This document shows positions 3,550 to 21,603 of a DNA stretch of 23,822 nucleotides, one piece after another (positions within the stretch are counted from its first letter, which is position 1; every line of letters starts with the position of its first letter). The notes under the pieces were generated by a model. It was not told the origin of the DNA. It made no database searches and worked only from the letters and a program-made list of their open reading frames with translations. This stretch comes from a virus. The stretch is from IMG/VR virus record IMGVR_UViG_3300030333_002331, positions 1 to 23,822 of that record. One strand, 5' to 3'. Made by a program: the position numbers and the translations under genes.

Positions 3550-4127
3550 GTACTTACCTCCATAAGCGTAAGGGATGATGTAGTTCTTGGCCTGTAAGTT
3601 TCGTTTGAAGTATCTTCAGTTCTGTTCAAGTACATTGTTTCATTTCCACCTCCTCCCCATCCTCCGCCTATTCGGATTCGGTAAGTAATAGCAGAAGTAG
3701 TACTTGGTGAGTCTAAATAATTGATAACTAAATTTTCAGGTCTTTGGTTATTACCAGTTGAACCACTTGGACCAAATCTACCCCTAACGCCGTCAGACGC
3801 ACCTCTATAATCATCTATTATCGTTGAATCTCGAACTAAAATAGCTCCTACTTGTTCCGTTGAATTAACTCCTACATTTAAAGATGCTATACATAAAATT
3901 TTACTTGTTGTTGCTTGAGGAGTTATAGATAACGTCATAACGTCGCCAGTATATTCAGCACTAGCAACAGACTCGGAAAACTTGGCAGAAGTAGCAGTAC
4001 TAACAACTTGAACAATTACTCCCGGTGCTGCTGGAAATTTTATAACTTTATCGCTACTACTTGATGCCGGTCCCTCAAAAGCAACTGACCCTCCTCCTGA
4101 TCCTGCATTTAATTTAATTTTTGACAT
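3546..4127 (-). CDS. Beta-rich fibre/receptor-binding protein
   Basis: A 193-residue protein whose ATG directly follows the TAG of the S74 gene. The start MSKIKLNAGSGGGSVAFEGP is a short anchor. A segment SSDKVIKFPAAPG matches the pattern of fibre 'titles' that precede a C-terminal jelly-roll-like domain. Residues 60-190 (EYTGDVMTLSITPQATTSKIL...TYRIRIGGGWGGGGNETMYL...SSLTLMEV) match a common marine phage domain with the hallmark SITPxATTSKILV. An exposed GGGWGGGG loop is present. Likely a trimeric receptor-binding or fibre-head domain. The receptor cannot be inferred. Confidence 0.72.
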   Translation of the reverse strand: MSKIKLNAGSGGGSVAFEGPASSSSDKVIKFPAAPGVIVQVVSTATSAKFSESVASAEYTGDVMTLSITPQATTSKILCIASLNVGVNSTEQVGAILVRDSTIIDDYRGASDGVRGRFGPSGSTGNNQRPENLVINYLDSPSTTSAITYRIRIGGGWGGGGNETMYLNRTEDTSNETYRPRTTSSLTLMEVST

Positions 4128-4811
4128 TTAGGCAGCCTCCAATGCAGCAACTTTAGTCTCTAATGTTTCTACTTTAGCGATCAAGTCTTTAATTGCTGCG
4201 GTAAGTACAGGGGTTATCTTTCCGTAATCAACCCCTTGGTACGCAGGAGTACCATCAGGATTAACTGCATCTTTTGTTCCACTTGTACAATCAGGTATTA
4301 CTGCCTGTATTTCGTGAGCGATAAATCCATCATAAAAAGTACCGGGTTCATTTTTAAAATTAAATTTTCTAGGTTGTAATAATTTTACTTTTGCTAATCC
4401 ATCGGTTATATCTGAAATGTTTTCTTTCAAACGATAATCAGAAGAGGTATTATATTGAGTTGCATTATTTTTACATTTAATTTCACCAACAAGAGTACCT
4501 GACTTAGAAAAACCAACATGATTCCTGTAATTGCTATCTGTGTCAGTAGTCCGATTAAACATACAAACGTAATTGCTATATAGTTCTTGATCAACCCTTA
4601 ACGCTTCTTCAGATATAGCACTACTAGAAGTACCAATAAACATCCTTCCATTTGCGTTTAACCGAAATCTTCTTGTTCCTCCTGTAGAAGCATCAATAAT
4701 ATCTGTACCAAAAGAAAAACCCGTATTTGTATCCGTACCAGTTAAGCCCGGAGACGAAACTGATCCATTTGCTGAGTTTATCCCTGAGGTTCCGTCAATT
4801 GTTACTGACAT
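4128..4811 (-). CDS. Fibre protein with peptidase S74 intramolecular chaperone domain
   Basis: A 227-residue protein starting one base after the preceding TGA. Residues 1-120 are a short beta-rich passenger (ASTGGTRRFRLNANGRMFIG). Residues 121-227 form an endosialidase-type intramolecular chaperone (peptidase S74): SSDYRLKENI with candidate catalytic Ser124 and Lys129, then LQPRKFNFK, GFIAHEIQ with conserved His166, and a C-terminal coiled coil (about 203-227). In this family the domain trimerises the fibre and then cleaves itself off in front of the Ser. Cleavage would release a mature product of about 123 residues. The small passenger makes this a compact S74 protein. It lies in the middle of the cassette, not at the end of the longest fibre. 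Confidence 0.88.
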   Translation of the reverse strand: MSVTIDGTSGINSANGSVSSPGLTGTDTNTGFSFGTDIIDASTGGTRRFRLNANGRMFIGTSSSAISEEALRVDQELYSNYVCMFNRTTDTDSNYRNHVGFSKSGTLVGEIKCKNNATQYNTSSDYRLKENISDITDGLAKVKLLQPRKFNFKNEPGTFYDGFIAHEIQAVIPDCTSGTKDAVNPDGTPAYQGVDYGKITPVLTAAIKDLIAKVETLETKVAALEAA

Positions 4812-5432: not shown

Positions 5433-8400
5433 TTAAGCCCCCCGGCCATAACCTACAGCAGTCCAAGAAAAATTCTTGTTAATTGCTGACCCTCCTGAGT
5501 TTTTGATAGTCACAGTAAATTGGGTTCCTGTAACTGTGCCCATGTCGATAAAATCACCACTTGATAAACCAGTTACATTCAAGGAAACGCTTGGCAGGTA
5601 AGCATTGACACCGCCTAATGAAGACGTCCCTGTCCAAAAAGGCTTAGTAAAAGTAACTGTTTTAGCACTTGTTCCACTAGCAACAACGCCTGTGCTGTGT
5701 TCACTTCTGACGTCAAGTCTTGCTTCATATCCTAATTGGTCAACCAATATATTTTCAGTCGTATCGTTGCTTGTCATGTCTGTTTTAAATTGGAAAGCTC
5801 TACCGCTAAAAGTTCCATTTTTCAAAGAAACCCATGATCCCCAAGTAGGAGATCCACTTGGGTTGTCATTTGTAGTGCGTACAGACATCGAAGCATTGAC
5901 ATCATCAATGACAGCCCCATCCCAGTCTGATCTTGCATCTATATCAGGCCAAACATCCATCAAGTCGCTTGGTCTAACGCCTCTACTTACAAAATATCTT
6001 TGAAGATCAAGAGCGAAAACACCTTCCAAATCTAAAGTTGAAGCAAACTGGTACGAACCAGAGCTATTAATGGCTCCACCACTTGAAGTTAATTGAAGAG
6101 CATCAAGACCAGAGTCATATTCTGTATTTGTTTTACTGCCTGTGAACGGAGTTGGACTTATTTGATCTTCTCTTTGATTTTTAACAAGTAAAGTATCCGC
6201 CTTTTCTGAAGGAGTTTGGATAATAATACTTGCGGCATTTGTACTAAAGTTCCCTGATGAATCGGCAAATTTTACAAGTGTTTCTCCTGCTAGTTTTGGG
6301 ATCACAACTTCAGTTGAAGTTCCTGCTATTGAGTCGATTAAATCAACACTGTTGTTCCAATTACCTGTGCCATCAGTTAAACTTGAGTGCCTAACGTGAA
6401 TTTTTCCACCAACTTTCACATCAATATCAGTTGTCGCGTCCCATTTGAGTCTTCCTGAATTAGGACTAATGTCTTCAAAAGTAAGGTTAGAAATATCGGA
6501 AGGAGGTGCTGTTTTTCCCAACAATGTCCAAGTGTTAGAAGCAAAAGGACTGCCATATCCTAAATAGTTGTAAGCTCTGATCTCTGTTCTAAGTGTTCCA
6601 ACTTTTAAATCTTTTATCTTTAAGGAAGGAGAAGTGGTTGTAAGTCTTACCCAATTATTGTCTTTAAAACGATAACCAACTCTAAACTCAGTAACGGATT
6701 GAGCAGGTGCCGACCATGCAAGATCAAAAGCTGTTTTAATATTTTGGCCGTCTTGGTAAAGATGTTCTTGCCCTGTGACGTTGGTAACTGCTTCTGGAAC
6801 GACACTTATATTGGATACATCTCTTTCTGTTATTTCGTCGCCCTCATCTACAGCGTCATAAATAGAAGAATTGTACTTAAGTGCAGAAACAGAATAAACT
6901 CCTTGATCTCCTTCACTTACACTTAAAATTCTAAATTGTTGAGATAATATGTCTGATGTTTGTATTAACCAAGCAGCCCCTTGTTGTGGTACTTGTGAGA
7001 ATGTTCCTGCACAATTAATGGTCGTTCCAGAAATAGAATTAATATCTTTTTTCTCAAAAAAGCCTCCTTGTAACATTATTGAAAGCGTAGGATTATTACT
7101 TAAATCTACATCTGCTAAGTCTTTATCATTATCTACAATAATGACAGAAGTAGAAGAACCAGTTGAGACCCTACCCATCCTTCTCTTTCCTCCTTTTACT
7201 GGATCTGCAATATCTATAACCATGCCCGGACGTAAAACAATTCCAGCCGAAATGTCAACGGAAAATGTAACTGTTTCTGTTAAATTCTGCTCACTTAGTA
7301 AAAGCCATTTGCCCATTCTTTGAGCTTGTCCTTGTGAATAACATCCAACAGCTTTAATGTCTTTATTTATAACTCCATAATTACTAATACCTTCCTGATC
7401 TTCTACATATTCAAATTTTACTTCACCTAATAAGTCATAATCTTGATAAGCAACTGTGGCTGTTGTATGTCTAGATTTTTGCGAAGTTCCTGAATATTCA
7501 AATATTCCATTGATCACATTTGCAGGACCAAGCAAATACTGACTGTCAGAAGGTTTATCCTGCTTCATTGTTAAAGAACCTGCTCCGTAAAAAGCCATGC
7601 CTCTAAAAATTGAAGTTAATTCTTGAATGACATTAAAGACTTCATCTCTTGAATTGAGTAATAGATTAATAGAAAATCTTGGTTCAGTTCCACCTTTCCC
7701 ATTTGGAACCAGTTCATTAGCATACTTACTACAACTATAAAAATCCCATTTATCTAAGGAACTTGCCGGGATGGATGCCCCGTAACGGGTGTCTGTCATA
7801 AGATCCCATAAGCACCAAGCAGGATCAGAGCACCATTTAGCAGATCCAAAAGACCCGTTCCACGTGCCAGAATAAGTTACACGACCTGAAGAAGAATCAA
7901 CAGAAGCATTAGATGGTAGCTGAACTTTTAAGCCTTTTACATGATATTTTCTTGAAGGAATCCCACTAAAATTTCTAGAGTCAAACCTTAAATAACATAA
8001 AGCACTATTCGGGTACCGATATTTTTCATCTTGTATTTCTGTATAGCTAGACCAGAAGGTCCGACTCATGTTTTTAGTTGTTTGATTATCGGCTGTTTCT
8101 CTAACTAACTTTATATCGTGAGGAAAATTTCCACTCAGACTGACCATGTAATCACGCTTATAAGCATTACTGGTTTTTCCTCTAATCTTGTCTCCTATTT
8201 TTTTGCTATAACCACCTCCATTTGATTGAGTATAAATTGAAATCTCTACTTCATTTCCAACAATATCTCCATCATCTTCAAATTTTTGAAGACTTGGAAT
8301 GTTGATTGTAATTCTTACTCTATCGACGGTTGTATCAGTAACAGTTCTAATAACTGGGGTCGAGTTTAAAATCTCGACATTTACATTTTTCTCGCTTTGT

Positions 8401-9128
8401 GATCCTTGATTACTTGAAATATAAGTTTGCCCCTGTGTTCCATTTCTAGTTAAGACGTTATAACCAACAAAATTAGACTGACCTCCAGCACTTTTAATTG
8501 GTGTCCCGTCTAAATAAATTCCTTTCTCTCCGTCAACGATTCCTTCAATTTCTCCTTCACAAAGCAAATCTACAACATGAGCTTTTTGAACACTTTGAAG
8601 CGTGTCATCTGCCTCCGTTGGAGTATGAGAACTTCCGCCACCGCCACCGCCTTTAGAACCACCACCACCACCAGCACCTTGTATACCTGTTCCTAATCCT
8701 GCATTGTGAACCCGAATATTTCCAGCGATAAAAGTGTGCTGGTTTTCAACGGTTAAGTTATAGACCGTCCCATGTCCTATTTTTTTGCTTTCGATTAAAG
8801 GTAATAAATGTCCGTTAATATCTACGACACAATCATCAGGACCAAGCGTTCCAATCCCTACAAAAGCATTGAACTGATTTAATACCCAATGGTTCGGAGT
8901 TGCAATGACAGACTTATCACCCCAGAATTTATAATCCCAAATTTCTTCTGCTAAATGTCGATGTACTTTTAATATTTTTGCCTCATGTATTTCGCCTTTG
9001 TCGTCGAAACTTAAAACCTTTTCACCTTCCTTTAAGTCATTTATAGGACGAGAACCTTCAGGCGTTTTGATTAACGTAGAGCCAAAAAAACATCCACCAC
9101 CACCACCTGATCCTTCGATGTATTTCAT
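5433..9128 (-). CDS. J: Tail tip / host specificity protein, lambda J-like, with Hint domain
   Basis: A 1231-residue central tail-tip protein that forms the end of the tail and carries fibres. The start at 9128 makes an ATGA overlap with the I-like gene and gives MKYIEGSGGGGG. An in-frame start at 9179 would overlap I by 55 bases and is rejected. Order: Gly-rich start (1-12); Hint domain (13-142); second Gly-rich linker (about 153-169); the J signature HTPTEADDTLQSVQKAHVVD...EGEIEGIVDG (about 172-205); the J core with tip-attachment region (to about 770); one or two fibronectin III-like repeats (about 775-975); and a C-terminal beta domain (WVSLKNGTFSGRAFQFK) ending GYGRGA. Lambda J is 1132 residues from memory, so the length without the Hint domain is close. 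Function in adsorption and tail-tip assembly is known for the family. The insertion is described separately. Confidence 0.93.
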   Translation of the reverse strand: MKYIEGSGGGGGCFFGSTLIKTPEGSRPINDLKEGEKVLSFDDKGEIHEAKILKVHRHLAEEIWDYKFWGDKSVIATPNHWVLNQFNAFVGIGTLGPDDCVVDINGHLLPLIESKKIGHGTVYNLTVENQHTFIAGNIRVHNAGLGTGIQGAGGGGGSKGGGGGGSSHTPTEADDTLQSVQKAHVVDLLCEGEIEGIVDGEKGIYLDGTPIKSAGGQSNFVGYNVLTRNGTQGQTYISSNQGSQSEKNVNVEILNSTPVIRTVTDTTVDRVRITINIPSLQKFEDDGDIVGNEVEISIYTQSNGGGYSKKIGDKIRGKTSNAYKRDYMVSLSGNFPHDIKLVRETADNQTTKNMSRTFWSSYTEIQDEKYRYPNSALCYLRFDSRNFSGIPSRKYHVKGLKVQLPSNASVDSSSGRVTYSGTWNGSFGSAKWCSDPAWCLWDLMTDTRYGASIPASSLDKWDFYSCSKYANELVPNGKGGTEPRFSINLLLNSRDEVFNVIQELTSIFRGMAFYGAGSLTMKQDKPSDSQYLLGPANVINGIFEYSGTSQKSRHTTATVAYQDYDLLGEVKFEYVEDQEGISNYGVINKDIKAVGCYSQGQAQRMGKWLLLSEQNLTETVTFSVDISAGIVLRPGMVIDIADPVKGGKRRMGRVSTGSSTSVIIVDNDKDLADVDLSNNPTLSIMLQGGFFEKKDINSISGTTINCAGTFSQVPQQGAAWLIQTSDILSQQFRILSVSEGDQGVYSVSALKYNSSIYDAVDEGDEITERDVSNISVVPEAVTNVTGQEHLYQDGQNIKTAFDLAWSAPAQSVTEFRVGYRFKDNNWVRLTTTSPSLKIKDLKVGTLRTEIRAYNYLGYGSPFASNTWTLLGKTAPPSDISNLTFEDISPNSGRLKWDATTDIDVKVGGKIHVRHSSLTDGTGNWNNSVDLIDSIAGTSTEVVIPKLAGETLVKFADSSGNFSTNAASIIIQTPSEKADTLLVKNQREDQISPTPFTGSKTNTEYDSGLDALQLTSSGGAINSSGSYQFASTLDLEGVFALDLQRYFVSRGVRPSDLMDVWPDIDARSDWDGAVIDDVNASMSVRTTNDNPSGSPTWGSWVSLKNGTFSGRAFQFKTDMTSNDTTENILVDQLGYEARLDVRSEHSTGVVASGTSAKTVTFTKPFWTGTSSLGGVNAYLPSVSLNVTGLSSGDFIDMGTVTGTQFTVTIKNSGGSAINKNFSWTAVGYGRGA
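8703..9092 (-). other. Hint / mini-intein-like (BIL-type) domain inside the J protein
   Basis: Residues 13-142 of the J protein (130 residues) show all splicing-domain blocks. Block A is CFFGSTLIKTPEGSRPINDL with Cys1. A block B TPNH (Thr65, His68 of the domain) follows, then a block F-like GHGTVYNLTVENQHTFIAG and the block G ending HN. There is no room for a homing endonuclease. The residue after the final Asn is Ala, not Cys, Ser or Thr, so ordinary protein splicing to a C-extein nucleophile is not expected. That matches bacterial intein-like (BIL) domains, which cleave or splice inefficiently. Both flanks are poly-Gly (GSGGGGG before, GAGGGGGSK after), suggesting insertion into a flexible Gly linker. 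Activity is inferred, not shown. Confidence 0.88.
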
Positions 9129-9772
9129 AATCTGTCTGTATCTAGACCAGAGCTTAAAACAGCACTTCCAATAAAGCATCTACCATAAACAATAGGTACT
9201 GGCAATCCTTGCTGGCTCGTTTGAGTAATTCCGCTAAATGAATAATTTGTCAATTTAGTTGCTTCTTTGCTTCTTCCTAATCCGGGTTTAGGTGTTGGCG
9301 AAATGATTTGACCAACTCCTCCTATTAACAAGGAAACCCCCATCCATCCAACGGCCTTTGACACTCCTGCCGAGAACAGCCCTGTTCCTACTGCACCCAT
9401 GAAACCCTGACCTGCAGTAGCCAAGGGAATACCCGGAGCAAAAAATATCGCTGCACCTATCAAAGCTGCTCCTAACAATGCCTTACCCCATCCTCCACCT
9501 GCTCCTGAAATAACAGGCGTAATATTGAAAACTTCTTTTTCACTCCAAGGATAAGAAAGCCGTTCAATATTATCCTCTCCAATTTCTTCTTTGTCTAAAA
9601 CAACTTTATAAGCAATCCCATCTTTTTCGCTGTCAATAATCCAATTTTCTAAACCCGGAAAGTTTGCACATAAAGCTCTAATTGCTTCAGCAGGGTTAAA
9701 GACATCAAACTCAAAGGTTCCTTGACCTCCAAGCTTTTCTTTTAATGCTCCGTGGACTTTAACGACTTTCAT
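9125..9772 (-). CDS. I: Tail tip assembly protein, lambda I-like
   Basis: A 215-residue protein of the lambda gpI family. The N-terminal 90 residues have the small beta-grasp (ubiquitin-like) pattern MKVVKVHGALKEKLGGQGTF...PAEAIRALCANFPGLE. They are followed by SGAGGGWGKALLGAALIGAAI, a stretch of hydrophobic Gly/Ala-rich segments (about 92-165), and a C-terminus with GLPVPIVYGRCFIGSAVLSSG. It overlaps the K-like gene by 14 bases and J by ATGA. In lambda, I is needed to assemble the tip together with L, K and J but is not clearly retained in the mature tail. Its substrate is unknown. The hydrophobic part may help membrane interaction during DNA entry (inference). Confidence 0.9.
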   Translation of the reverse strand: MKVVKVHGALKEKLGGQGTFEFDVFNPAEAIRALCANFPGLENWIIDSEKDGIAYKVVLDKEEIGEDNIERLSYPWSEKEVFNITPVISGAGGGWGKALLGAALIGAAIFFAPGIPLATAGQGFMGAVGTGLFSAGVSKAVGWMGVSLLIGGVGQIISPTPKPGLGRSKEATKLTNYSFSGITQTSQQGLPVPIVYGRCFIGSAVLSSGLDTDRL

Positions 9773-10478
9773 GTCTTAATCCTAATGCAGTCGCTTTGTA
9801 ATAATAGCCTCCCCACTTATAAACATCACGACTTGATAATCTCCCTTGTACGTGATGTAAAACTAAATTTTCACCTAAATAAATTGAACCATGATTGACG
9901 ACAGGACTTTGAATTGTCATTAGAAACAAATCACCATACTTTGCTTCTTCTATTTCAATCTCTTTGAAACCTTCCTTTTTGAAATTATCTACATATAAGT
10001 TTTGACCCTTTAGCCACCAGTCGTCTTGCCTGTTGTAATCCTTTAATTCAATTTTAAATTCTCTTTTATAAAAGTCTCTTATTAGGGTATAACAATCAAC
10101 AATGCCATGTGACCATTCCCTCCCAACATAAGGAAGTTCAAAACCTGACGGTTTATATTCTCCCCAATTTTCAGTTTGCGGATTAACAATAAACCAAGGT
10201 AATTTGCTTTTTTCACATGCAACTTTATCCGCTTCGCTTGGGGCGTGGTTTGTTGTTGGGTGGCTATGGATAACAGCAGCTATTGAACCTAACTTTTCAG
10301 CTTCTAGATAATCTGCAGGATCAAGAACAAAATGTTCTTCTGGATTTGTTGCCTGATTCTTGCAAGGAAAATAACGTTGCTTTCCTTTTACAATATGAAC
10401 TAAACCAACACTTTCTTTTGGGAAATCTTCTTTGGCATGTTCTAGTGCCTTTTCCTTGATGCTTTCTATTAATTTCAT
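9759..10478 (-). CDS. K: Tail tip peptidase, lambda K-like (JAMM + NlpC/P60)
   Basis: A 239-residue two-domain enzyme. Residues 1-110 are a JAMM/MPN metalloprotease-type domain, with Glu22 (PKESVG) and HSHPTTNHAPSEAD giving His71, His73, Ser81 and Asp84, the complete zinc-binding signature. Residues 115-239 are an NlpC/P60 cysteine peptidase: DCYTLIRDFY with nucleophile Cys129, NHGSIYLG with His196, and a later HH at 208-209. In this family the NlpC/P60 part cleaves peptidoglycan cross-links to open the wall during DNA entry. The JAMM part's target is unclear. The start at 10478 is ATGA-coupled to the L-like gene. Both active sites look intact, so both activities are plausible. Confidence 0.93.
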   Translation of the reverse strand: MKLIESIKEKALEHAKEDFPKESVGLVHIVKGKQRYFPCKNQATNPEEHFVLDPADYLEAEKLGSIAAVIHSHPTTNHAPSEADKVACEKSKLPWFIVNPQTENWGEYKPSGFELPYVGREWSHGIVDCYTLIRDFYKREFKIELKDYNRQDDWWLKGQNLYVDNFKKEGFKEIEIEEAKYGDLFLMTIQSPVVNHGSIYLGENLVLHHVQGRLSSRDVYKWGGYYYKATALGLRHESR

Positions 10479-19369: not shown

Positions 19370-19531
19370 TTAAACATAAGCCGAAGCCTCTAACTCTTCA
19401 TCTGTCACTTGATCCTTTTTAATCATTTCCTTCATTTCGTTATACAAGCGATCTGCTGTCACAAAATCAGCCTCCCAGTTGGCCATCTTCCTTTGATGGC
19501 ACAAGGTTAAATACTTGGAATCAGTAATCAC
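19370..19531 (-). CDS. Small helical protein, 53 aa, GTGA-coupled to MuF gene
   Basis: A 53-residue ORF starting at GTG 19531, whose GTGA overlaps the TGA of the MuF gene (19530-19528). It reads MITDSKYLTLCHQRKMANWE and continues ADFVTADRLYNEMKEMIKKD, then QVTDEELEASAYV. A later ATG at 19486 would give 38 residues. The 15 codons before that Met also read like protein and the overlap is of the kind used throughout this operon, so I prefer the GTG. Predicted helical, acidic at the end. The function is unknown; it may assist the portal or MuF protein. Confidence 0.6.
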   Translation of the reverse strand: MITDSKYLTLCHQRKMANWEADFVTADRLYNEMKEMIKKDQVTDEELEASAYV

Positions 19532-21603
19532 AATCCTTCGTAAAGCATCTTGATATATTTTAGTGCTTTTGCATCAGAAATACCCACAAGATTATCGGTT
19601 CGTTCCCTAATATTTCGTGCCATTAATTCCGGCCCATCTAACTCTTTTTTCAACAGGGTTTTTACTTTCTTTCTGTTTGAAATAAATTTCTTATATTTGG
19701 AGCTACTTTTTACCAAGAATCCATCAGGTCCAATCAATTCAAGTTCCTGAATAACCCTGTAAGATTGCCAATCCCCACCAACTTTTCCCATTATATTATT
19801 CGCTTCTCCCGTTCCCATTGCTTCTATTAATGCCGCTTTTGGATCTGATTGAGCCATCCCTAAATCTATCGCCATCCCTTTCTTCGTTTTCCTGTCATAG
19901 AAGAAATTCATCCCGTGCATATCGTTATGAGCAATCCCTTTTAAGTGAATAGATTTTCTAACGTCCAAATATGAGTCCATCATTTCAACAGCTTCTTTTT
20001 TACCTGCAACTCCTACTGCAATTTCTTTCATTAAAGGCTTGCCCTTGGCTTTGCCCATTGTTAAGTATCCAGTTTTAATTGTTACCGTTGACGACGAAGC
20101 AATCTGTGCTTTCCTTTCTAATTTTTTAAACCCAAAAAGTTCAGGAACAACACCTGTATCCTGCAACTTCCTCATGGATGCAACTTCGTTTTCAGCTATA
20201 CGACCACGCTTAATAACAACTCCACCTTGCCTGTTGGATACATACCTAGCTTCTCCAGCTACTCCTTTTCCTAATTTGATAGAAGTGGGTTTCTCGAAAA
20301 ATTTCTTAGGATCATCCACAATAGGTTGAATCGGTCTGTTCTTTCCTGTTCTCTTTGGTTGTAATTTCGCAGGATCGCCGTATCTAGCCTTTAATTGTTT
20401 TAACGAAACCTCGCTCCCATCCTCACGAACGATTGAACGCAACGCATCCCTTCCACCCTTTTGTTTTGACAACCGACGGAAATAAGCAGACTTTTCTTTC
20501 CCTAAAACTTCAGCCTGCACACTTTTAGGTTGCCGAGCTAACCATTGCCCGTATGTCATATTTCCGGGTACGGGTCTGCCCTTTTGTTCCTTCCCCCACT
20601 TGGCTGCCCTTTTTGTTTCATCCGGCCCGAAGACTTTATCCGGTGGCGTTTCTCCAAACTGCTCGTACCACTCGTCATCTATAACAGGAACAATTGTTGA
20701 TCTGCAATTAAAATGTTGGGGTGGGGTTGGCCCTTTGTTATATGTGAATTTCTGACCGTCAAGTTGGGCACAAATGGCAGATGTTCGACTATCTAAAGTC
20801 GCCACATATTTGTATTTTTTAGCAATATCAGAATTAGCCTCGAATGCTCTTTTGCTTGCTGTATTTGCAACTTGATTAACGCTAGTTCTAACAATCGTCA
20901 TCACCTGATGATTTGCCATTTTTGTGGCATGACCTCCAGCTAATGCAATCTGTCTGACATTTCCAGTTTGTCCAAATTCCAAACGGCCCTTTAATCTCCG
21001 AGCCATTTGCTGAGTTGTATCACCTGCCAATAATCCACTTCTAACGACTTGACTAAATCTTTCGGCCTGCTGAACAGCTAAACCACGAAATGCTTTCTGC
21101 ACTGTGGTTCCATTTGGCAAAGTTATGTACGCACCCTCCGGAGCCGTTAATTTGAATTTGCCCCCTCGCAATTCATCCTGTAATTGATCGGGAACATTAA
21201 AAATATTGACTGATGTTGGGTCAGTCATAACAACTGATTTAGCAAAATCAGGACTAACAGCAACAGTCCGAACAGGGACGTACTCTCCTTTAGGAACCAG
21301 CTTTTTTAACTCATTCTCTACAAACTCAGACTGCAAAACTGCCAAACCCTGCAACTCTTCCTTTGTGACATTCGCACTATCTATCGCCCACGTTCCAAGC
21401 GATTCTTTTAATTGGGCTAATAATGACCGGAGCCTAGTTGCCGTATATGGTGCTGTTGTTTCGTCTATCTGTTGTAATTTATTTGCTGTTTCAACAATGA
21501 TGTCGTTATAGGTTGTAATTAATTTTTTAGACACTCCATTGCTAAAACGATTAAGGTCAATCGCTTGGCGATAAAAAGTGTCAGGGGTTGGTAAGTCGGC
21601 CAT
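19528..21603 (-). CDS. MuF head-morphogenesis protein with C-terminal kinase-like domain
   Basis: A 691-residue minor head protein starting four bases after the portal stop. Residues 1-215 are a helical N-terminus. Residues 220-310 are a MuF (phage Mu gpF) domain: IVRTSVNQVANTASKRAFEA, YVATLDSRTSAICAQLDGQ, and PPQHFNCRSTIVPVID with Cys278, His297 and Cys300. A GNMTYGQWLARQP...LG segment (347-368) commonly follows MuF. Residues 441-600 then show a protein kinase-like domain: GKGVAGEA loop (445-452), VIK (Lys465), Glu471/473, a hinge (YLTMGKAKGKPL), HNDMHGMN (Asp561, Asn566) and DLG (Asp580). MuF proteins sit on the portal and can be carried into the host. The C-terminal module may be an injected effector (inference). 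Confidence 0.88.
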   Translation of the reverse strand: MADLPTPDTFYRQAIDLNRFSNGVSKKLITTYNDIIVETANKLQQIDETTAPYTATRLRSLLAQLKESLGTWAIDSANVTKEELQGLAVLQSEFVENELKKLVPKGEYVPVRTVAVSPDFAKSVVMTDPTSVNIFNVPDQLQDELRGGKFKLTAPEGAYITLPNGTTVQKAFRGLAVQQAERFSQVVRSGLLAGDTTQQMARRLKGRLEFGQTGNVRQIALAGGHATKMANHQVMTIVRTSVNQVANTASKRAFEANSDIAKKYKYVATLDSRTSAICAQLDGQKFTYNKGPTPPQHFNCRSTIVPVIDDEWYEQFGETPPDKVFGPDETKRAAKWGKEQKGRPVPGNMTYGQWLARQPKSVQAEVLGKEKSAYFRRLSKQKGGRDALRSIVREDGSEVSLKQLKARYGDPAKLQPKRTGKNRPIQPIVDDPKKFFEKPTSIKLGKGVAGEARYVSNRQGGVVIKRGRIAENEVASMRKLQDTGVVPELFGFKKLERKAQIASSSTVTIKTGYLTMGKAKGKPLMKEIAVGVAGKKEAVEMMDSYLDVRKSIHLKGIAHNDMHGMNFFYDRKTKKGMAIDLGMAQSDPKAALIEAMGTGEANNIMGKVGGDWQSYRVIQELELIGPDGFLVKSSSKYKKFISNRKKVKTLLKKELDGPELMARNIRERTDNLVGISDAKALKYIKMLYEGL
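19804..20283 (-). other. Kinase-like domain of the MuF protein
   Basis: Residues 441-600 of the MuF protein carry, in order, a Gly-rich loop, a VIK-type Lys465, a helix with Glu471/473, a hydrophobic hinge, a catalytic loop with IAHNDMHGMNFF, and a metal-binding DLG (580-582). The HxDxHxxN catalytic loop is closer to small-molecule, RIO or ABC1-type kinases than to eukaryotic Ser/Thr kinases (HRDxKxxN). All the key residues look present, so activity is possible. The substrate is unknown. Confidence 0.75.

Follow-up and report, generated by a model that had tools for sequence, protein, structure and literature searches.

The J gene and its tail module

The window, that is, the whole 23,822-nt stretch of DNA analysed here (an IMG/VR virus record), carries on its minus strand a lambda-like tail module that encodes the tape measure, L (PF05100, Phage_tail_L), K, I (phrog_32) and J. 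Its J gene product matches phrog_31 'central tail fiber J' (2.7e-224) as well as Pfam FNIII-A_GpJ, and is recognizable as a lambda J homolog from its hub-domain sequence, its FNIII-A domain, and the L-K-I-J order of the genes. We placed the start of J at the ATG at 9128 because a relative (L002) has a stop codon just upstream. From this start J reads MKYIEGSGGGGG-[C...HN]-AGLGTGIQGAGGGGGSKGGGGGGSSHTPTEADD, such that the translation of 8703-9092 (minus strand), CFFGSTLIKTPEGS...TPNH...NQHTFIAGNIRVHN, comprises exactly 130 amino acids ending in His129-Asn130. This domain begins twelve residues from the start of J, occupying J residues 13-142, and is flanked in the window by MKYIEGSGGGGG and AGLGTGIQGAGGGGGSKGGGGGG (Table 1).

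A sequence-only reading of this DNA had already proposed that a Hint domain is inserted in the poly-Gly N-terminus of a lambda J-like tail tip protein, and both the J profiles and the flanks agree with this. The same reading described the domain-bearing J as adjacent to the K peptidase, which is wrong in detail, since gene I intervenes. The genes for gpK and gpI were found both with and without the Hint domain, therefore nothing ties it to the K peptidase, and we rejected a dependency of the domain on either protein.

Several other features of the region deserve mention in their own right. After its N-terminal part gpI contains TPVISGAGGGWGK, which resembles the J signature IxGAGGGGGK and appears in relatives as xPVxAGAG; together with the JAB domain of gpK this motif recalls the ubiquitin-like/JAB pairing that has been proposed for lambda tail proteins. 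An intramolecular chaperone domain of the Peptidase_S74 type (2.6e-11) is present in a tail-fibre-like protein (4128-4811, minus strand), and gives this tail region, besides the Hint domain, another module that could cleave itself. Further away, a 691-aa protein (19528-21603, minus strand) combines a Mu F-like head morphogenesis domain (PF04233, 3.8e-16) with a region that weakly resembles protein kinases (Pkinase 1.1e-4, short of the cut-off; motif HNDMHGMNFF...IDLG).

Table 1. Coordinates of the J gene, the inserted domain and neighboring features in the window.
Feature	Coordinates	Strand	Basis
Gene K (JAB + NlpC/P60)	9759-10478	-	Profile matches
Gene I (gpI, phrog_32)	9125-9772	-	Between K and J
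Tail-tip protein J, 1231 aa, domain at residues 13-142	5433-9128	-	phrog_31, FNIII-A_GpJ
N-flank peptide MKYIEGSGGGGG, first copy of J N-terminal signature IxG[AS]GGGG	9093-9128	-	-1 Gly in 178/178
Upstream direct repeat GGTGGTGGTGGTGG, proposed recombination seam	9094-9107	-	Longest exact flank repeat in window
Hint (BIL-like) domain, 130 aa, Cys1 to Asn130	8703-9092	-	Translation, profiles, predicted structure
Cys1 codon, N-S acyl shift nucleophile	9090-9092	-	Cys in 177/178
Block B TPNH (Thr65, His68)	8889-8900	-	Thr 178/178, His 177/178
Cys88 codon, DDC motif	8829-8831	-	Invariant, 178/178
His119 codon, block F His	8736-8738	-	178/178
His129-Asn130, predicted C-terminal cleavage dyad	8703-8708	-	178/178
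+1 to +4 AGLG, C-flank	8691-8702	-	AGLG 173/178, AGIG 3, SGLG 1, AGLS 1
TGIQGAGGGGGSKGGGGGG, second complete copy of J N-terminal signature, as at start of Hint-less J	8634-8690	-	N-terminus comparison
Downstream direct repeat GGTGGTGGTGGTGGT, proposed recombination seam	8658-8672	-	Flank-repeat comparison

Fold and active site of the inserted domain

With the isolated domain as query, the NCBIfam models intein_Nterm and intein_Cterm scored 29.9 (cut-off 24.5) and 20.4 (cut-off 15.6), respectively. Pfam Intein_splicing matched the window domain at 2e-7, which does not reach the gathering score of that model. One of the domain's close relatives (L022) passed the Pfam cut-offs for both Hint and PT-HINT. 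These matches to intein and Hint models are not due to chance. In an AlphaFold2 model made from an alignment of 60 relatives, pLDDT averaged over blocks of 10 residues exceeded 90 throughout residues 11-140 of the modelled stretch, and the flanks, including the linker after the domain, were predicted to be disordered. In a Foldseek search against the PDB the top matches to this model were all Hint domains (E down to 1e-11; VIA-align Z about 20), the best solved structures being BIL2 of Tetrahymena, gp41-1 and CthBIL4, with DnaB and DnaE inteins also among them. We are certain that the predicted fold of the J-inserted domain is that of the Hint superfamily, with its horseshoe-shaped all-beta architecture, a Cys at position 1, and the block B TxxH motif. 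The sequence-only reading had named structure prediction as a check on its assignment of a Hint/BIL-type domain to 8703-9092; the Hint fold was obtained, and the assignment is right to the base, with translation, profiles, AlphaFold2 and Foldseek in agreement.

Conservation was assessed in 178 distinct Hint sequences that pool all IMG/VR loci; each search kept its best 80 loci, and therefore this sample is biased toward closer relatives, with very divergent members under-sampled. The domain is 130 aa long in all 132 sequences counted. The catalytic residues that had been picked out from the window alone (Cys1, the block B Thr and His, and the terminal His-Asn) are kept in 177-178 of the 178 sequences, and the Ala at +1, also singled out earlier, recurs in all but one, the exception (L017) having Ser. 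Codons at these catalytic and conserved positions vary freely among synonyms, and dN/dS is about 0.12 over 108 non-overlapping pairs, a set in which some repeat-scan copies of one contig were retained; taken together, synonymous variation and low dN/dS point to selection for an intact auto-processing site. It is accordingly very hard to believe that this Hint fold is dead, or has a structural role only, and never undergoes processing. One natural copy (L018) does fit such a description, having lost Cys1 with its reading frame otherwise intact, but it is set against near-complete retention of the catalytic positions amid freely varying synonymous codons.

Two further observations concern this alignment. 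The invariant Cys88 is none of the usual catalytic residues, and may have a redox or metal role. In one copy (L201), immediately before position 4001, the poly-Gly ahead of Cys1 becomes WWWW when translated in the Hint frame, which suggests a frameshift or an assembly error in the GGN tract.

Distribution of the domain among J genes

The Hint domain is common in environmental phages. Two scans of IMG/VR returned 468 and 525 contigs with a close relative and further scans added loci, for at least 525 contigs overall. A survey of phage J proteins for Hint domains at the same Gly linker had been suggested from the window sequence. All 176 testable copies lie directly upstream of J, with Ala at +1 as described above. 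By comparison, when 50,697 isolate phage records were searched by tblastn with the domain, no J gene contained a copy and the matches were all distant, lying in helicases, reductases, terminases, a methylase, and unannotated or hypothetical genes. J relatives are present among isolates, reaching 40-49% in the best matches, and none of them carries this domain. A DNA-level search in phages gave no match. Among 84,980 cellular genomes there was one match, on a 7-kb contig that is binned as a cyanobacterium (MAG) and reads as phage tail genes. A viral structure library contains many Hint domains, of which the top match, an uncharacterised 1016-residue protein from an uncultured virus (34% identity), may be a relative of the J Hint family.

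Using J bodies rather than the Hint domain as queries recovered many J genes without the domain, mostly with N-termini of the form M..[I/V/L]xGAGGGGG-K-GGGG-..TPTEADD. In two Hint-less J genes (L143, L147) the poly-Gly signature has shrunk to GSKGGKGGG. A tree of 133 J bodies, 83 of which have Hint and 50 of which lack it, shows 24 changes of the Hint state, and well-supported branches force at least 12 of these. In two pairs (L020/L319 and L372/L370) the J proteins share about 98% identity across 330 residues and differ in the presence of Hint; the domain is therefore not needed by J in general.

Comparison of the N-termini shows how the two states are related. Hint-plus alleles have the signature twice: one copy (IxG[AS]GGGG) precedes Cys1, and a second, complete copy, with Lys, follows AGLG. 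In one Hint-plus locus (L227) the unusual string IQGASTGGG is common to both copies, and in one pair of alleles (L039/L356) the Hint-less N-terminus, MTMIEIQGAGGGGGGGKGGGG, is the upstream copy fused directly to KGGGG. The poly-Gly tract itself contracts and expands.

Movement with breakpoints in poly-Gly codons

The Hint domain moves as a unit between phages, with breakpoints inside the poly-Gly codons. Among 260 pairs in which Hint DNA identity is at least 90%, there are 17 with Hint at least 10 points above both flanks, and a single pair in the opposite direction, with Hint at least 5 points lower. In the clearest case (L276 versus L371/L382) the Hint regions are about 94-95% identical in nucleotides and the gpI and J flanks 65-67%, with similarity beginning in the upstream GGN codons and stopping in the downstream GGN codons. 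When the two flanks are compared for exact direct repeats, the longest one measures 11 nt in the median, versus 6 in the control, and 14 nt in the window. All sequences are metagenomic, and poly-Gly repeats can yield assembly chimeras; the same junctions recur in independent samples.

This mobility bears directly on an idea from the sequence-only reading, namely that the domain is a maturation part of J, capping the protein until assembly and then cutting itself off as a control of timing. Strong purifying selection on the domain is compatible with such a switch, as are the near-invariant AGLG after the predicted cut, the complete J N-terminal signature that directly follows it, and the position in the tip of the lambda J N-terminal region, where it contacts the neighboring gpI and completes a domain together with the C-terminal part of gpL (PMC10721106). 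A dedicated maturation part is nonetheless difficult to reconcile with J proteins up to 98% identical that do without it, with gpK and gpI that are present regardless, and with a cassette that jumps alone between diverged J genes. We consider this function unlikely, and the comparison does not support the proposed switch as a general need of J.

A proposed self-processing cassette

In Hint domains generally, Cys1 forms a thioester with the N-flank, and the C-junction is cut as the terminal Asn, with the assistance of His, cyclises. Standard splicing then requires Cys, Ser or Thr at +1; in the alternative splicing of BILs it is the freed +1 amine that attacks the thioester. A-type BILs are often without a +1 nucleophile and prone to C-terminal cleavage, and some splice by an alternative route (PMC5874633), with which a 2020 review stating that A-type BILs do not ligate (PMC7765530) is in conflict. 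The earlier inference that Ala at +1 makes standard splicing unlikely thus stands as an argument against transesterification, but not as one against ligation (PMC5874633).

We hypothesize, with reasonable confidence, that the domain is a mobile A-type-BIL-like cassette that removes itself from J and spreads via GGN-repeat recombination, without an endonuclease. The fold, the conservation of the active site, the optional presence on J, the movement as a unit and the poly-Gly breakpoints are all computed results. Because the domain has every residue for BIL-type chemistry, it probably removes itself from J, in line with the self-cleavage suggested earlier. In such a reaction the Gly-Cys1 bond would shift to a thioester and Asn130 would cyclise, cutting Asn|Ala, whereupon the 130-residue domain would leave J. 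Either J would then start at AGLG..., or the new Ala amine would attack the thioester and re-join J to the short N-peptide (aminolysis). Since the cassette brings a second copy of the motif, both products would have a native-looking J N-terminus (hydrophobic-x-G-A/S-GGGG-K-GGGG). At the DNA level, recombination between the flanking GGN-codon repeats would either excise the cassette in frame or introduce it. Purifying selection would maintain the activity, the simplest reason being harm to J from a cap left unprocessed; by analogy with the crowded lambda tip, a retained extra domain would plausibly be costly. In the absence of a homing enzyme, a cassette that was purely neutral would be expected to disappear in the long run, and the explanation given here may thus overlook some benefit.

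The natural role of BIL domains is poorly settled, partly since their host proteins are ill-defined. Here the host, J, is among the best understood of phage proteins, and naturally matched J alleles that differ in having the domain, with about 98% identity in some pairs, make direct tests of BIL function possible. Recombination between glycine-codon repeats is also a suggested route by which intein-like elements could be mobile without a homing endonuclease. Hint domains in phage enzymes such as terminase are already known. The literature searched contains no description of a Hint domain in a tail-tip J protein, nor of endonuclease-free movement through poly-Gly codons.

Relation to known Hint, BIL and intein systems

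In profile searches the family matched CthBIL4 at 5e-11 (45.9 bits), BIL2 at 8e-10 (42.0 bits) and gp41-1 at 2e-9 (40.6 bits), and by sequence score it is barely closer to BILs than to the gp41-1 or Mtu RecA mini-inteins; the comparison covers about 130 columns at 20-27% identity, too little to resolve a tree. Membership in the A-type BILs is likely, although not settled by sequence score. The features that recommend it are the C-terminal His-Asn in all 178 sequences, a +1 residue that is nearly always other than Cys, Ser or Thr (Ala 177, Ser 1 of 178), and insertion in a variable region of the host, here the N-terminal poly-Gly of J, which varies in length. CthBIL4 of Clostridium thermocellum (PDB 2lwy) shares the Hint fold with an rmsd of 1.5-1.6 A and 26-27% identity, and A-type BILs similarly have the terminal His-Asn, commonly a non-nucleophilic +1 residue, a variable host site, and no endonuclease. 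Unlike CthBIL4 and other A-type BILs, the J domain is hosted by a phage tail-tip hub protein, is fixed in length and site with a near-invariant AGLG after the predicted cut, and moves laterally via poly-Gly codons.

BIL2 of the Tetrahymena BUBL1 locus (PDB 6y75, 6tmm) is the best Foldseek match (E 1e-11, 23% identity), and unlike the J domain it lies between ubiquitin-like domains and makes isopeptide bonds, joining its N-flank to a lysine side chain (PMC8616854). It is tempting to imagine a similar conjugation device in J, in which the thioester of the poly-Gly N-peptide would be passed to an isopeptide bond with a Lys in the J Gly linker, in gpL or in gpI; the tip of some phages would then be covalently marked or cross-linked with no need for ATP or enzymes. 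Indeed, 140/140 Hint-plus J proteins have a Lys in the downstream Gly linker, but the same Lys occurs in 76/86 Hint-less J proteins examined, and the other ten lack a Gly-rich linker within J, so the Lys is not there for Hint. Moreover, one of the two zinc ligands named for BIL2 is not kept in the J domain: as we read the alignment, His48 corresponds to His46, but His125 to Asn112, and a BIL2-like zinc control was set aside. Conjugation of this kind therefore strikes us as highly improbable, and we retain the self-removing cassette as the preferred reading.

The mini-inteins gp41-1, Npu DnaB and Mtu RecA have the same fold and match over the whole domain. All three depend on Ser, Thr or Cys at +1, and the proteins that they interrupt, at conserved sites, are replication or packaging enzymes. 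Could the J domain be an ordinary selfish mini-intein, with Ala at +1 by chance, full ligation of the flanks and no role for the phage? It passes the intein_Nterm and intein_Cterm cut-offs, the gp41-1 and DnaB mini-inteins match it nearly as well as BILs do, and its patchy distribution and lateral transfer are intein-like. It seems rather unlikely all the same, given a +1 Ala, unusable by standard splicing, in 177/178 sequences, a fixed 130-aa length without endonuclease, and a site that is a flexible, length-variable Gly linker and not the conserved catalytic motif of any essential enzyme. Because the +1 nucleophile (Ser, Thr or Cys) is absent and the insertion is in a variable linker instead of a conserved motif, the domain is not a canonical class 1 intein. 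The phiCbK TerL intein is likewise a Hint domain within a phage protein, in that case 341 residues long, at a conserved TerL site, followed by Ser472, and predicted to undergo conventional splicing (PMC3556154).
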